Source: Myxococcales bacterium (GTDB taxonomy: Bacteria; Myxococcota_A; Polyangia; Haliangiales; Haliangiaceae). Taken from it: DNA of 49,863 nt. The position numbers were made by a program, and so were the translations under genes. How positions within the stretch are numbered: the stretch's first letter is position 1; each line of letters starts with the position of its first letter. Below are positions 41,450 through 49,859 of this stretch, piece by piece. The notes under the pieces were generated by a model. The model was not told the origin of the DNA, did not search any database, and was given only the letters and a program-made list of their open reading frames with translations. The stretch is from NCBI GenBank assembly GCA_016794545.1, contig JAEUJX010000553.1, positions 1 through 49,863 on the forward strand, in the 5' to 3' direction.

Positions 41450-42541
41450 CTACCAGTCCTTCTCCGGGTCGCTCGCCTTGCCGGTCGCGCGGCGACGCGC
41501 CTCGTCGCGCTGGAGGCGGCGCGACTGATCCTCGAGATCGTCGAGCTTCTTCTCGGTCTTCGACTTCTGGCCGGGGTTGTCGCGCAGATCGCCGGGGCTG
41601 CCCTTCTGGTTGCCGCCCGGCTGGCCCTGGCTCGGGTTGTTGCCGGCCGAGCCCGAGCCTCCGCCCGAGCCGTTCGAGCCGTTCGAGCCGTTCTGGCCGT
41701 TCGAGCCCTGGCGGTTCGAGCCGTTGCCCTGCTGCCCGTTCTGCTGCTGGTTCGAGCCCTGCCCGTTCGAGCCGTTCTGCTGGTTACTGCCCTGGCCGTT
41801 CGAGCCGTTCGCGTTCGAGCCCTGACCGTTCGAGCCCTGCTGGTTGTTCGAGCCCTGGCCCTGCTGGCCCTGCTGTTGCCCCTGCTGGCCTTGTTGCCCT
41901 TGCTGGCCTTGTTGCCCCTGCTGGCCTTGTTGCCCCTGCTGGCCTTGTTGCCCCTGCTGGCCTTGCTGGCCCTGCTGGCCCTGCTGGCCCTGCTGCCCCT
42001 GCTGGCCCTGCTGCCCCTGCTGGCCCTGCTGGCCCTGCTGGCCCTGCTGGCCCTGCTGCTGCCGCTTCTGCTCCTGCTTCTGACGCCGGCGCAGCGCGAG
42101 CTCGAGGTTCAGGCGCGCGTCCTCGTTGTTCGGGTCGTCGCGCAGCGCCTGCTTGTACGCCTCGATCGCGTCCTCGAGCTTGTCCATGCCCATGAGGGCG
42201 TTGCCGCGGTTGTAGTGCGCCGAGCTGCGCAGCTTCGGATCCTTCAGCCGGGCCGCCTGCTTCAGATCCTCGAGCGCCTGCTCGGTGAGCTTCTGGCGCT
42301 CGGCGGCGTCGTTCGTGGTCTGCGCCTTCTTGAGCTTCGCGGTGCCGCGGTCGTACGCGAGACCATCGGGATCGACATCCGGATCCTTCGCGGCGCGGTC
42401 GTACGCGGCGAGCGCGTCGTCGATCCGGCCCTCGGCGTACGCCTTGTTCCCCGCCTCGACGTCGGCGTTCGGAGACCGGAACGGCTCCCACGCGCCGAGC
42501 GCGAGGACGAGCACGACCGCGATGCTTCTCCGGGCCTTCAC
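41450..42541 (-). CDS. BatC-like TPR protein with long Gln/Gly repeat tail
   Basis: The last gene of the Bat-type operon. Residues about 1-20 are a signal peptide; about 25-155 form TPR repeats (NADVEAGNKAYAEGRIDDAL, HYNRGNALMGMDKLEDAI), as in BatC/BatE aerotolerance proteins that scaffold the vWA partners. The C-terminal half is low complexity: about 20 QQG units, then Gly/Ser/Asn-rich sequence (NGSNGQGSN) and a basic-acidic tail. Its start GTG 42541 overlaps the BatB-like stop (GTGA). Total length 363 residues. The tail may phase-vary in length or mediate assembly. Confidence 0.85.
   Translation of the reverse strand: MKARRSIAVVLVLALGAWEPFRSPNADVEAGNKAYAEGRIDDALAAYDRAAKDPDVDPDGLAYDRGTAKLKKAQTTNDAAERQKLTEQALEDLKQAARLKDPKLRSSAHYNRGNALMGMDKLEDAIEAYKQALRDDPNNEDARLNLELALRRRQKQEQKRQQQGQQGQQGQQGQQGQQGQQGQQGQQGQQGQQGQQGQQGQQGQQGQQGQQGQQGQQGQQGQQQGQQGQGSNNQQGSNGQGSNANGSNGQGSNQQNGSNGQGSNQQQNGQQGNGSNRQGSNGQNGSNGSNGSGGGSGSAGNNPSQGQPGGNQKGSPGDLRDNPGQKSKTEKKLDDLEDQSRRLQRDEARRRATGKASDPEKDW
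41857..42060. repeat. 9-bp tandem repeat coding for QQG units
   Basis: About 20 units of a CTGCTGGCC/TTGTTGCCC-type nonamer run through the BatC-like gene. Because the unit is three codons, copy changes keep the reading frame. The array is far too short in period and lacks spacers, so it is not a CRISPR. Confidence 0.9.
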
Positions 42542-43761
42542 GTTGCCTCCGGGTAACGCTGACGCCGCCGGGTGCTGATCGCAACCTCGATCACGAGCAG
42601 CATCAGCCCGGCGAACAGGAACGGCTCGAACACGTCGCGCATCTCCTTGATCTTCTTCGTCGCGAGGCCGCGATTGACCGCCTTCAGCGAGTCGATCACC
42701 GGGGTCGGATCGAGCTCGCCGCGCTCGGCCGCGACGAGGTAGCGCTTGGCGTCGCCGCTCGCCTGCGCGAGCGCGGTCATGCCGGCGTCCTCGCGCTTCG
42801 AGGTCACGGTCGAACCGTCCGGCATGCGCTTCGGCGTCGTCGTTCGCCGGCCGGTCGTCGGATCGATCTCGTAGACGATGCCGCCCGCCTCGGTCCCGAC
42901 GCCGACGAACAGCACGGCGATGCCGAGCTCGCGCGCGTTGACGACCTCCTTCAGCGTCTCCTCGTCGGGCTCGCCGCCGTCGGTGAGGACGAGGATCGCC
43001 TTGCCGCGCTCGACCTTCTCGACGAGCGCGTCCTCCGCGGCGATCGGAGCGCCCGGCTCCGGCTTCGGATCGAGGCTCTCGCCGCGCAGCGGGTCGCCGC
43101 CGTGGCCGCGGCGGCCGATGCGCGAGCAGCCGAGGTCGTCGTAGAGGTCGGGTCGGAGCAGGCAGCGCGACACGCGCAGCACCTCGCCGAGGTTCGAGCC
43201 CTGCGGCAGATCCGCCGGGCCGAGGTCGCCGAGGAAGCGGATCGCGACCTCGTGGTCCTCCGTGAGCGGGAAGTGCGCGGCCGCCCCCGCGAACACCACC
43301 GGGCCGATGCGATCGCCGGGCAGGCCATCGATCACCAGCGTCGCGAGCTCGCGCGCGCGCTCGAGCCGCGTCGTCGGCAGCTTCTTCTTCGTCATGCGCG
43401 CGGTCGGCCCGACGTCGTCGACCAGCATCGACTTCGAGACATCGACCGCGACGACCACGTCGAGCCCGCGCACCTCGATCTTGCGCTTGCCCTCGATCTG
43501 CGGCCGCGCGGCCGCGACGAGGATCAGGACGAGCGCGCCCGCCGCGATGCCGTCCTTGACGAGCCGGCGGCGCGGCGACTGCGACGCCATCAGCCCCTTC
43601 AGCACCGGCAGCTCGCCCATGCGCCGCGCCATCACGCCACGGCGCCACCGGTCCCACAGGTGGAGCAGCGCGACCGCGACCGGCGCCGCGGTGATCGCGA
43701 CCCAGAACAGCCACGGCGTGGCGATCTCGATCGACGTGATCCACGTCCACAGCTTCGTCAC
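42538..43761 (-). CDS. vWA-domain membrane protein, BatB-like
   Basis: A 407-residue membrane protein. Helices lie near 16-34 and 71-85, and a C-terminal helix near 380 (VFEPFLFAGLMLLVIEVAI). The vWA domain has the metal site DVSKS (107-111) and ILVLTDGGEPD. This matches BatA/BatB proteins of the aerotolerance operon, which face the periplasm. Residues after about 200 are a long insert relative to a minimal vWA fold. The start GTG 43761 has a GGAGG binding site five bases upstream and overlaps the BatA-like stop (GTGA). Confidence 0.88.
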   Translation of the reverse strand: MTKLWTWITSIEIATPWLFWVAITAAPVAVALLHLWDRWRRGVMARRMGELPVLKGLMASQSPRRRLVKDGIAAGALVLILVAAARPQIEGKRKIEVRGLDVVVAVDVSKSMLVDDVGPTARMTKKKLPTTRLERARELATLVIDGLPGDRIGPVVFAGAAAHFPLTEDHEVAIRFLGDLGPADLPQGSNLGEVLRVSRCLLRPDLYDDLGCSRIGRRGHGGDPLRGESLDPKPEPGAPIAAEDALVEKVERGKAILVLTDGGEPDEETLKEVVNARELGIAVLFVGVGTEAGGIVYEIDPTTGRRTTTPKRMPDGSTVTSKREDAGMTALAQASGDAKRYLVAAERGELDPTPVIDSLKAVNRGLATKKIKEMRDVFEPFLFAGLMLLVIEVAISTRRRQRYPEAT

Positions 43762-45011
43762 GGCAGCCTCCGGAACCGCGTGTGCGACAGGAGGAGGTCG
43801 AGCCCGAGAAGGATCGCCGCGAGCACCGCGAACGGCAGGAACAGCTGCTTGTCGGGGATCCGCTCGATCGTCGTGCGCTTGATCTTGTCGAGCTTGTTGC
43901 GCACCGCCTGGAAGCCCTTGTCGAACGTCTCGTAGTCGGTCGCGCGGAAGAACTCGCCGCCGGTGAGGCTCGCGATGCTGCGCAGTGTCGCCGGGTTCAC
44001 GCTCATGCCGCCGAAGAAGTCGTTCTCCTCGCGGCCGACGAGCACCGTGTACACCTTCACGTTCATCTTCGCGGCCGCGCGCGCCGCCTCGTCGGGCTCG
44101 AACCGCGTCACCCAGTTCGAGTCGCCGTCGGAGAGCAAGATGACGACCTTGTGGCGCTTGCCGTTGTCGACCTCGCAGTACCCTTCCGTCGAGCACGAGA
44201 AGCCGCTCGCGCACGTGTTGAGCGCGCCCGGCGTGCCGTCACAGACGCCGTCGCTGCGGCGCAGCTGCGCGAGCGCCAGCGCGAGGCCGTCGCCGATCGC
44301 GGTGCCGAGCTCGGGCACGTCGCCGATCGTCAGGTCGCTCACGATCTGCTCGAGCATCTTCATGTCGCCGGTCAACGGCGCCTGCAGCATCGCCTGCTGG
44401 CCGAAGATCACGAGGCCAACGCGGTCGTGCTTCGTGCGCCGCAGGAAGCGCCGCACCACGCGCTGGGCGGCATCCATGCGATCGCGCGGCATGTCGGTCT
44501 CCTCCATCGACTTCGACATGTCGAACACGATCATGATGTCGACGGAGTCCTCCTCGTGCTTGATCGTTCGGAACGTCTCCGGCCGCATCAGCGCGACGCA
44601 CAGCGCGCCGATCGCGAGCACGCGGAACACCCCCGGCAGATCGGAGAACCACGCGAGCAGGCCGCGCTTCCGCACCAGCGCGGTCTGCGAGAACCCGAGC
44701 GCGGCGCTGCGCCGCCGGTGCAGGTGGAACGAGATGAACCCGACGAGCCCCGCGCCGGCGAGCAGATGGATCGCGTTCCACGACCGCCACACGATCTTCT
44801 CGCCGGCCCGCAGCTGGTCGACGTACCGGTACATCCCGTACGCGAGCGCGCCGCCGATCGCCGCGACGAGCACCCACGGGATCGAAGCCTGGATCGCGAT
44901 CGCCGCACGGCGCCGCCGCTTCGCCGGATCGATCATCACCCACACCACCATCCCGATGATCAGGGCGCCGAGCGCGAGCGCGCCGATCGTGATGCCCGTC
45001 CGGACCTTCAC
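43758..45011 (-). CDS. vWA-domain membrane protein, BatA-like, with four-cysteine insert
   Basis: A 417-residue protein with helices near 7-26, 42-62, 79-97 and 125-142, a vWA domain with metal site DMSKS (164-168), Thr237 and LSDGDSN (D295), and a C-terminal helix near 393-409. Between the third and fourth strands an insert (about 254-285) carries C257, C267, C273 and C279 with EGF-like spacing, not known to me in BatA. The start GTG 45011 overlaps the BatD-like stop (GTGA). It likely works with the BatB-like and TPR proteins in the envelope. Confidence 0.88.
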   Translation of the reverse strand: MKVRTGITIGALALGALIIGMVVWVMIDPAKRRRRAAIAIQASIPWVLVAAIGGALAYGMYRYVDQLRAGEKIVWRSWNAIHLLAGAGLVGFISFHLHRRRSAALGFSQTALVRKRGLLAWFSDLPGVFRVLAIGALCVALMRPETFRTIKHEEDSVDIMIVFDMSKSMEETDMPRDRMDAAQRVVRRFLRRTKHDRVGLVIFGQQAMLQAPLTGDMKMLEQIVSDLTIGDVPELGTAIGDGLALALAQLRRSDGVCDGTPGALNTCASGFSCSTEGYCEVDNGKRHKVVILLSDGDSNWVTRFEPDEAARAAAKMNVKVYTVLVGREENDFFGGMSVNPATLRSIASLTGGEFFRATDYETFDKGFQAVRNKLDKIKRTTIERIPDKQLFLPFAVLAAILLGLDLLLSHTRFRRLP

Positions 45012-46381
45012 GCCGCCTCCCGCCGCGCCGCCTGCTGCGCCGCCTGGCGCAGCTGCGTCGTCGTGACGATGAGACCGCGCGCGTCGTCGAGCACTCCGTT
45101 CGCCTGCGCCGCCGTCGCGCGCTGCGCCGCATACTTCACGAGGTCGCACTGCCCGAGCCACACCTCGACCAGCTCGCGCTCGTCAGCGGGCGCCACCTTC
45201 GAGAGCGCCTTCACCAGCTCGACCGACGTCAGGTCGCGCGACGCCACCTCGTACCGCGCCCCGACGTAGTCGCGGATCACGTCGACCATCTCGGTGTAGC
45301 CCTTCTTGCGGTCGACCTCGCGATCGAGCACGCCCGACTCCTTGATCTTGTGGAGCGCCGCGAGCGCCTTCTCCGCGGTCATGTCGATCTTGCGCTTCGG
45401 CATCGCCATGATGCCGCCGGTCAGCTTCACCGTCTTCTTCTTGAACGACAGCGTCCGCGCGTACGCCCAGCCACCGAGCAACAGGAGCACCGCCCCGATC
45501 GCGCCGCCGATCCACAGCCACGTCCAGTCGCGCGTGACGAGCGTGGTCGGCGGATGCGCCGGCCGCAGCGCCTTCGGATCGTCGACGACGTCGCCGAGCA
45601 CGCCGTCGACGCGGAGGCGCACCGCGTTGGTCTGCACCTGCCCGACCTTGCCCTGGAACGTGTACGTGATGACGATGCCGGGGATCTGGAGCTCGCCCAG
45701 GTCCCACGCGGTGACATCGATCTGCCACTCGCGGATCGTCTTGCTGTCCGCGCGCAGCGTGTCGTGGCTGTCCTTCTTCTTGATCTCGAACTGAGGTCCG
45801 AGCTCGAACGGCTCGCGCAGGTTCGCCACTACCCCCTGATCCACCACCGCCGTCACGAACAGCGTGAACCGGCCGCCGAGCCGGATCGCCGTCGGGCTCG
45901 CCGACGCGTCGACCTCCGGCGCATTGACGTCCGTCGGCAGCTGGATGATCCGCGGCCCGGAGCCCGAGCCCGAGCCCGACGCCGAACCCGAACCCGACGC
46001 CGAACCCGACGCCGAACCCGACGCCGAACCCGACGCCGAACCCGAACCCGAACCCGTTCCCGACGCCGAACCCGTTCCCGACGCCGACGCCGAACCCGAC
46101 GCCGAACCCGTGCCGGCCGCGGAGCCACTGCCGACCGCCGAGTCACTCCCCACCGCTGCGCCAGAGCCCGCACCCGGATCCGCGCCCTGTGCGTGCGCCG
46201 TCGCCGCCGCGAGCAGGACGACGAGCGCCGGGACGATGACGCCTCTCCCGCGAGCGCCGGACAAGGAAATGGGGGACGGGCCCCCGTTTCCGCGTGTCCC
46301 GCGAGCGCCGGACAAGGAAATGGGGGACGGGCCCGCGTTTCCGCGTGTCCTCCCGGACATCGTCGCGGAGCGTCGGGTCAT
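45008..46381 (-). CDS. BatD-like membrane protein with REP insertion and Ser/Gly linker
   Basis: A 457-residue protein. ATG 46381 overlaps the DUF58 stop (ATGA), fixing the start. Residues 12-28 and 29-45 are two copies of a 17-residue unit encoded by a palindromic repeat; the signal peptide core VIVPALVVLLAAATAHA follows. Residues 66-145 are an Ala/Ser/Gly repeat linker. About 145-265 form one immunoglobulin-like BatD domain (GVVANLREPFELGPQFEI), residues 288-307 a membrane helix, and the rest a cytoplasmic helical domain. BatD proteins act with BatA/BatB in an incompletely understood envelope-stress role. Confidence 0.82.
   Translation of the reverse strand: MTRRSATMSGRTRGNAGPSPISLSGARGTRGNGGPSPISLSGARGRGVIVPALVVLLAAATAHAQGADPGAGSGAAVGSDSAVGSGSAAGTGSASGSASASGTGSASGTGSGSGSASGSASGSASGSASGSGSASGSGSGSGPRIIQLPTDVNAPEVDASASPTAIRLGGRFTLFVTAVVDQGVVANLREPFELGPQFEIKKKDSHDTLRADSKTIREWQIDVTAWDLGELQIPGIVITYTFQGKVGQVQTNAVRLRVDGVLGDVVDDPKALRPAHPPTTLVTRDWTWLWIGGAIGAVLLLLGGWAYARTLSFKKKTVKLTGGIMAMPKRKIDMTAEKALAALHKIKESGVLDREVDRKKGYTEMVDVIRDYVGARYEVASRDLTSVELVKALSKVAPADERELVEVWLGQCDLVKYAAQRATAAQANGVLDDARGLIVTTTQLRQAAQQAARREAA
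45957..46120. repeat. Short tandem repeats coding for the Ser/Gly/Ala linker
   Basis: A hexamer/dodecamer-type repeat (units such as CGAACCCGACGC) runs through the linker part of the BatD-like gene. It codes for SGSASG-type sequence and lies just after the signal peptide. It is likely to vary in copy number. Confidence 0.85.
46247..46297. repeat. REP-like palindromic repeat, copy A
   Basis: A 51-bp unit directly repeated with copy B. Its centre is an inverted repeat with arms GGAAATGGGGG (46265-46275) and CCCCCGTTTCC (46281-46291) around loop ACGGG; outer arms GGACA (46259-46263) and TGTCC (46295-46299) extend it. This looks like the palindromes spread by REP-associated Y1 transposases. It is in frame (17 codons) with the BatD-like gene. 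Confidence 0.75.
46298..46348. repeat. REP-like palindromic repeat, copy B
   Basis: The second 51-bp copy, identical to copy A except for one C-to-G change that weakens the stem. The two abut head to tail, so together they add 34 codons to the BatD-like gene ahead of the signal-peptide core. Confidence 0.75.
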
Positions 46382-47267: not shown

Positions 47268-48323
<1,056 letters not shown>

Positions 48324-48422
48324 GGACCCCCCTGAGGGTGTCACAAAGAATGGCGAGATGCCCGTCTCCACTCGGGGGCAACCCCCAGCGGGGTGCCGGT
48401 ATTCCGGGTTATGGTGTGGCCC
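48324..48422. promoter_or_regulatory. Divergent promoter region between moxR and the DUF1844 gene
   Basis: This 99-bp gap must carry the start sites of both gene sets. It holds an inverted repeat, GGGGG (48374-48378) and CCCCC (48382-48386), three bases apart. No clear -10 or -35 is recognised. Confidence 0.35.
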
Positions 48423-48731
48423 ATGGCGGAGCAGCCGGTCGCACCCGCGCCCGTGGATTTCTCGACTCACGTGCTATCGCTGGCTTCCACGGCGCTCATC
48501 GCGCTTGGAAAGATGCCAGCTCCGGACGGGGCTACCCAGCCGGTCGATCTCGAGACCGCGCATCATCTGATCGATGTGCTCGCGATGCTCGAGACCAAGA
48601 CCAGGGGCAATCTCGACGAGGCGGAGGGCAAGCTCCTCGCGAGCCTGATCTACGACCTGCGCGTCGGGTACGTCGACGCCCAGAGGGCGCAGGGAGCGAG
48701 TCGTTCGCCGAGCTCGCGAGGCGACAAGTAA
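48423..48731 (+). CDS. DUF1844 family protein
   Basis: A 102-residue protein with the DUF1844 pattern: VDFSTHVLSLASTALIALG, then VDLETAHHLIDVLAML and EGKLLASLIYDLRVGYV. Its function is unknown; it is common in myxobacteria, planctomycetes and relatives. ATG 48423 is chosen over GTG/ATG codons just upstream because conserved sequence follows. The HtrA-like gene starts three bases after its stop, so they form an operon. Confidence 0.88.
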   Translation: MAEQPVAPAPVDFSTHVLSLASTALIALGKMPAPDGATQPVDLETAHHLIDVLAMLETKTRGNLDEAEGKLLASLIYDLRVGYVDAQRAQGASRSPSSRGDK

Positions 48732-48734
48732 GCC

Positions 48735-49859
48735 GTGCGCAGGCGCGGCCAGATCGCGGCGATCGCGGCGATCGCTGCAACCGCGCCGCTCGGCGCGTGT
48801 CGGGAGCGGACCGATGGAGAGCCGTCCCGCGGCAGCGCGAGCCCCGGTGTCGCCACCCGTCCCGCGGAGACCCCGCGGATGTACACCTCCGGCGCGCCCG
48901 GCTCGTTCGTCGATCTCGTCGCGAGCGCGCGGCGCGGCGTCGTCGCGATCCGCGCCGCGACGCCCGTGAAGTCCGGCCCCGCGGCCATGTTCCCCGGCGC
49001 GCCGGAGACCACCGCCGACGTCGGCCTCGGCACCGGCTTCCTCGTCGAGGCGAAGGGCACGTTCGTCGTCACCACGTACAATATCGCGACCGCGGCGCCC
49101 GAGCTGCGCGTCGTGCTCGACGACACCACCGAGATCCCCGCGAAGGTGATCGGCCGCGATGTCGATCTCGACATCGCCCTGCTCTCCGTCGACCGCCCGC
49201 GCCTCACGGCGCTGCCGCTCGGCGACTCGAACGATCTCAAGATCGGCGAGTGGATCGTGGTGCTCGGGAACCCGTTCGGCGAGGAGGTCACCGCCTCCAC
49301 CGGCGTGATCGCCTCGACCGGCAAGGAGGCCGCGGGCTCGCTCATGCAGGACCGCGGCATGGCGTACCGCACGTTCCGCCTGTTCCTGCAGACCGACGCA
49401 CGCATCCACCGCGGCAACTCCGGCGGCCCCGTGCTCGACACCGCCGGCCAGGTGATCGGCATGGCGGTCGCCACCGGCGATCGGATGGGCGAGCTGTCCT
49501 TCATCCTGCCGATCAACCGGTTCAAGGAGATCGTCGGCCAGCTCCGCGACAGCGGCCAGGTCGCGCGCAGCTGGCTCGGCGCGAAGGTGAAGCCGGTCAC
49601 GTCCGACGTCGCGCAGCAGCTCGGCCTGCCCGGCACGAGCGGCGCCTACGTCACCGAGATCGTCGCCGGCTCCCCGGCGATCCGCTCGGCGCTGCGCGCC
49701 GGCGACGTGATCATCCGCTGGGGCGAGCGCCCGGTCGACAACCGCTCGCTGCCCTGGCTCGTCGCCTCCGCGCCCGCCGGTCAGCCGGTGTCGCTCGCGG
49801 TCTGGCGCAACCGCGCCGAGATCATGATCCCCGTCGTGCCCGAGCGCATGCCGCAGTAG
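48735..49859 (+). CDS. HtrA/DegP-like PDZ lipoprotein, catalytic His replaced by Asn
   Basis: A 374-residue trypsin-fold plus PDZ protein. APLGAC is a lipobox (Cys22). The protease domain keeps D146 (VDLDIALL) and S229 (HRGNSGGPV), but the His of the usual TNNHV motif is replaced: the sequence reads TTYNIAT with N116. It should therefore be inactive as a serine protease, perhaps a chaperone or sensor. The PDZ domain covers about 280-370 (AYVTEIVAGSPA, LRAGDVIIRW). The start is GTG 48735. It is separated by three bases from the DUF1844 gene and diverges from moxR. Confidence 0.88.
   Translation: MRRRGQIAAIAAIAATAPLGACRERTDGEPSRGSASPGVATRPAETPRMYTSGAPGSFVDLVASARRGVVAIRAATPVKSGPAAMFPGAPETTADVGLGTGFLVEAKGTFVVTTYNIATAAPELRVVLDDTTEIPAKVIGRDVDLDIALLSVDRPRLTALPLGDSNDLKIGEWIVVLGNPFGEEVTASTGVIASTGKEAAGSLMQDRGMAYRTFRLFLQTDARIHRGNSGGPVLDTAGQVIGMAVATGDRMGELSFILPINRFKEIVGQLRDSGQVARSWLGAKVKPVTSDVAQQLGLPGTSGAYVTEIVAGSPAIRSALRAGDVIIRWGERPVDNRSLPWLVASAPAGQPVSLAVWRNRAEIMIPVVPERMPQ

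Follow-up and report, generated by a model that had tools for sequence, protein, structure and literature searches.

Several described HtrA proteins resemble the one that we have studied. DegP, DegQ, MucD and AlgW, in which a trypsin fold is followed by PDZ, are its closest matches in both sequence and fold; unlike them, our protein lacks the catalytic His, carries a lipid anchor and has one PDZ domain. DegS is another similar case, anchored to the envelope and with one trypsin and one PDZ domain; it differs in being proteolytically active and in having a transmembrane anchor. Degenerate HtrA triads are found in MamO and in the inactive MamE paralogues of magnetotactic bacteria. According to PMC4794232, these triads have several independent origins and the proteins are kept for non-catalytic work. 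Their origin lies in duplications next to an active MamE within magnetosome islands, and MamO has a di-His site that binds metal. DegP S210A and the S221A form of H. pylori HtrA are catalytically dead but are reported to act as chaperones or to protect against stress (PMC6892219 and PMC11642142).

The gene analyzed here is found at one end of the window, which is the whole stretch of 49,863 nt that we have studied (contig JAEUJX010000553.1 of a Myxococcales bacterium, assembly GCA_016794545.1). It is an open reading frame of 374 amino acids with a GTG start. The contig stops four bases past the gene, and the locus of this genome has been read on its upstream side. The main features are the following:

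48735 to 49859, plus strand: HtrA-type lipoprotein with trypsin and PDZ domains, triad N116-D146-S229, probable pseudoprotease
48735 to 48800, plus strand: signal peptide and lipobox LGAC (residues 19-22) with Cys22, recognized by eye
49080 to 49082, plus strand: Asn116 at the catalytic His position, codon AAT, placed by alignment
49170 to 49172, plus strand: catalytic Asp146, kept, codon GAC
49374 to 49382, plus strand: three-residue insertion, approximately FRL 214-216, before FLQTDA, clade-specific
49419 to 49421, plus strand: catalytic Ser229, kept in GNSGG, codon TCC
49557 to 49856, plus strand: PDZ domain with the W-L-G loop kept, from Pfam and alignment
48424 to 48731, plus strand: DUF1844 gene (PF08899, 6.3e-27), three bases upstream of the HtrA GTG
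47268 to 48323, minus strand: divergent MoxR-family AAA ATPase

A sequence-only reading of this DNA had described a lipoprotein with an HtrA fold and a PDZ domain, with Asn at the His position and the other two triad residues kept, and had proposed that it may be a pseudoprotease. The description agrees with our results. The trypsin-like domain (Trypsin_2, 3.9e-30) and the C-terminal PDZ domain (PDZ_2, 3.3e-8, 34.1 bits with a cut-off of 27) are both present, and the W-L-G loop of the latter is presumably of the carboxylate-binding type. DegP, MucD and DegQ are the best solved relatives; in the alignments, the YNIA motif of the window protein faces their His-containing NHV motif. The triad is thus read as N-D-S, not as the His-Asp-Ser of the HtrA/DegP family (S1C serine proteases). 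The only His in the whole protein is H225, four residues before Ser229, and the only Cys is C22, in the lipobox which, together with the signal peptide, marks a bacterial lipoprotein by eye. The lipobox Cys is present in 31 of 32 aligned sequences. The exception, L053, also lacks the linker found in the other aligned orthologues, possibly due to an indel or an assembly fault at the N-terminus.

The protein does not fall within any of the curated NCBIfam families that we have compared. It scores 236.5 bits with the Do family serine endopeptidases (TIGR02037), below the cut-off of 416.2, 136.9 bits with DegS (TIGR02038), far below the equivalog cut-off of 422.95, and 41.5 bits with MamO (NF040961), whose cut-off is 800. 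With its single His, it lacks the surface di-His metal site of MamO. It also differs from MamO and MamE in being a lipoprotein paired with DUF1844. The AlphaFold2 model (32 sequences) has a pLDDT of 84.8, and VIA-align places it on MucD (Z 28.9, with 277 residues aligned at rmsd 5.0) as well as on many further HtrA proteins. The changes might be concentrated in the sensor loop (S194, D206 and G208 as fixed differences, plus the insertion at 214-216), a suggestion that we consider weak because this loop is variable and residues 200-213 are a low-confidence part of the model.

The surroundings of the gene are also as the earlier reading had stated: it is divergent from a set of moxR/Bat genes and lies three bases from a DUF1844 gene. 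The mechanical reading frame of DUF1844 begins at 48393, and the ATG at 48424 is the likelier start. The minus strand genes code for MoxR, DUF58, two VWA proteins and a TPR protein, which we take to be the usual make-up of a moxR/Bat cluster. Low-complexity repeats are found in two minus strand stretches of the Bat-like genes: the TPR protein (41450-43750) has long GQQ repeats, and the product of 45008-46381 has GSGSASG repeats. A phage origin has been rejected, since the viral scan found no relative; the plasmid search gave only partial DegQ-type matches.

DUF1844 is upstream of HtrA in all 27 family orthologues with upstream sequence; the 28th, L026, begins at the contig end. Of the 30 orthologous loci from the family and its nearest relatives, 24 have the divergent MoxR gene, and some of the rest are short of upstream sequence; among the 93 other DUF1844 loci, the gene is found at 12. 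The constant feature is the DUF1844-HtrA pair, not the moxR neighbour. The proposal of an envelope-stress unit thus finds partial support, and is weak when moxR/Bat is included: the pair is conserved across the class, and its moxR neighbour less so. No obvious export signal is seen by eye in the DUF1844 protein, which is probably cytosolic, so that DUF1844 and HtrA are more likely to be co-regulated than in contact. At 30 of 123 loci in several families (for example L116, L129, L140 and L156), DUF1844 appears without a downstream HtrA gene, some of these loci being truncated where the contig ends; DUF1844 could therefore have a role that is independent of HtrA. The one paper found for DUF1844 in the open-licence literature, PMC9425974, lists it in a table.

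The His loss is shared with three related genomes; the relatives that carry names are metagenome-assembled Kofleriaceae, Myxococcales and Deltaproteobacteria. An HtrA match was found in all 36 genomes of our first search for relatives, and with a threshold of 1e-50 a match is given by 28 of 30 family genomes. Three orthologues, L008, L009 and L010, are 71-83% identical to the window protein and likewise lack the His, having K, T and K respectively in its place, with Asp and Ser kept. They form one clade with the window protein, with support of 97/93 in a tree of 36 rows and 97/95 in a tree of 27 rows, so that a single His loss, followed by drift at position 116, explains the whole clade. The codons at this position (AAT, AAG, ACG and AAG) are compatible with drift from an AAx codon. 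The insertion before FLQTDA is common to the four sampled species of the clade and absent from the other aligned orthologues. When compared with 86 positions which are invariant in 17 intact orthologues, the clade has changed ten, and position 116 is the only one of the 86 with three different replacements.

In order to cover the class, we have used DUF1844 as an anchor; it is carried by 244 of 289 class genomes. Of the 128 loci that we have read, 90 belong to the class (the 30 best returned, and 60 more picked to spread over families), 37 come from protein searches, and one is the window. DUF1844 was found at 123 of them, and at 93 of these an HtrA gene with the same orientation lies no more than 1.2 kb downstream. 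Removal of four loci which repeat the same gene leaves 89 distinct HtrA genes. The triad is His-Asp-Ser in 79 genes, lost in nine and unreadable in one, figures which should not be read as a rate since the sample is not random. In the unreadable gene, L107, an ambiguous base immediately precedes the Ser motif and the frame changes there; Glu is read at the Asp position. The intact genes of the same family and class share the neighbour, the lipobox and the architecture of the window gene.

The nine lost triads read N-D-S, K-D-S (twice), T-D-S, Q-G-S, H-G-A, H-G-T, A-G-V and S-G-V. They correspond to four or five independent events: parsimony on a quick tree of 90 rows, without L107, gives five triad changes, which become four if L023 (Q-G-S) belongs with the window clade. 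L023 is joined to this clade with support of 80/92 in the 36-row tree and 37/75 in the 27-row tree, and is apart from it in the 90-row tree. All nine genes are in one part of the 90-row tree, with 32 rows; none was found among the 53 readable rows of the sister group. Two genes, L088 and L108 (genomes G085 and G090), have lost all three triad residues (A-G-V and S-G-V); they are 77% identical to each other. In L054, the only changes among the 86 invariant positions are D146G and S229T, both catalytic. Two random changes among 86 would both hit triad positions in 3 of 3655 cases, a figure that was noticed post hoc and is not a formal test.

A recent duplication that left an active twin has been rejected: no such twin was seen in the nine genomes with a lost triad, where the next-best HtrA never exceeds 45% identity to the query used. 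Identity between the window protein and the next HtrA proteins of its genome is 29-36%; for the next-best matches in G009 and in the genomes of the other clade members it is approximately 29-34%. The second match to the A-G-V protein is at 45% in G085 and 42% in G090. When G042 is compared with an intact orthologue, its second match falls far short of its first. In G021 the gene with the lost triad is itself only 36% identical, and the comparison says little there. The window's genome also encodes intact HtrA proteins of other kinds. As a control for background loss, 40 paralogous HtrA loci were read in related genomes; all of them are His-Asp-Ser, a count which is biased to intact triads by being drawn from the higher-scoring matches.

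A second, separate degenerate HtrA is found in Kofleriaceae genomes, in tandem with an intact HtrA (G000:C754:8685-10366, which is L213, and L214-L223). It has Asp, and Ala at the Ser position, in all 11 loci fetched, ten of them with the motif RGFAGGP, and it reads F-D-A where the His position can be aligned. The intact partner is in the same stretch at nine of the 11 loci. This arrangement resembles the active/inactive pair of MamE and MamO, and means that triad losses exist outside the DUF1844-linked group.

The genes which have lost the triad do not look abandoned by selection. Nei-Gojobori dN/dS values inside the window clade are 0.16-0.34 (six pairs), and those of intact pairs are 0.19-0.38 in nine of ten cases, the tenth being 0.06 with a saturated dS. 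For the protease domain alone we obtain 0.18 (L001-L008), 0.12 (L009-L010) and 0.11 (L088-L108, A-G-V and S-G-V); the range of twelve intact pairs, 0.02-0.24, includes these values. Purifying selection thus acts on the former protease domain as it does in intact relatives. The PDZ domain is not singled out as the key part, since its dN/dS in two clade pairs (0.38 and 0.27) exceeds that of their protease domain; PDZ is in fact looser in most pairs, intact or lost.

With an HtrA fold, a lost His and no replacement His, the window protein is very probably a pseudoprotease, as had been proposed; its homology to HtrA, its missing triad residue and the purifying selection are those expected of one. 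On sequence grounds, proteolytic inactivity is strongly indicated. Its conservation despite the lost triad, together with several separate losses, points to a useful job without cutting. The explanation that we favour, with modest confidence, is that it is a selected pseudoprotease, its loss independent of duplication, which binds envelope proteins or peptides without cutting them. An active HtrA protease would have given rise to an envelope lipoprotein without catalysis, in which selection keeps the protease fold and the PDZ domain along with most of the active-site cleft. Anchored by its lipid, the protein might use this cleft and the PDZ domain to hold or sense envelope proteins that are unfolded, or C-termini that are exposed, acting as a holdase or scaffold, and the genome's other, intact HtrA proteins would do the cutting. 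What distinguishes this case from known ones is that a syntenic orthologue, a lipoprotein, has lost catalysis and that no recent duplicate of it was seen. We have not found a description of a DUF1844-linked HtrA pseudoprotease group in the open-licence papers searched.

The main rival to a holdase or scaffold is a regulator: the protein could bind another HtrA that is active in the cell, or co-assemble with it, and switch the activity of that HtrA on or off. The intact HtrA proteins elsewhere in the genome would provide partners, the Kofleriaceae tandem shows that intact and degenerate copies do occur in pairs in this lineage, and MamO promotes MamE-dependent proteolysis (PMC4794232). Nevertheless, we consider this role rather unlikely: at the loci read, the gene is not linked to an active HtrA, its partner being DUF1844.

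It is more doubtful still that some residual or unusual catalysis persists, in which Ser229 would be aided by His225, by the Lys of the relatives or by a His of the substrate. Asp146, Ser229 and GNSGG are intact in all four clade members, which speaks against a complete abandonment of catalysis, although they may be kept for a structural reason. The replacements N, K, T and K, however, fit no shared mechanism, and other lineages have lost Asp and Ser too. His225 has been rejected as a substitute catalytic base, because most of the family orthologues whose triad is intact have it too, while two (L014 and L018) have Thr there: it is not compensatory.

Neutral decay toward a pseudogene is very improbable. 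Some support might be seen in L023 and L033, which evolve fast (end branches of 0.98 and 1.27), but all nine genes with a lost triad have frames free of stops and keep the PDZ domain and the pairing with DUF1844, and the values of 0.11-0.18 for the protease domain come from three pairs in which both members are triad-less. As for a sequencing or assembly error at codon 116, the genome is fragmented (780 contigs), but four separate genomes without the His, with the codons given above, leave it a negligible chance.

Binding without cutting, the explanation that we favour, may have deeper roots. A tentative suggestion, to which we give about one chance in three, is that the DUF1844-linked HtrA lipoprotein was already a scaffold, for which proteolysis was optional, in an ancestor of this part of the class, and that cutting was actively selected against in several descendants. 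L054 would show this most cleanly, as only Asp146 and Ser229 have changed among the 86 invariant positions. If this is true, HtrA orthologues can lose catalysis convergently even when no duplication is involved, and the DUF1844-linked HtrA family would have a mainly non-catalytic function.

HtrA proteins are both proteases and chaperones, roles which have so far been separated mostly by laboratory Ser-to-Ala mutants. Nature appears to have repeated this type of experiment four or five times in a single syntenic orthologue group. The existence of closely related intact and inactive versions makes HtrA function without cutting directly testable, and the uncharacterised DUF1844 family gains a conserved partner gene.
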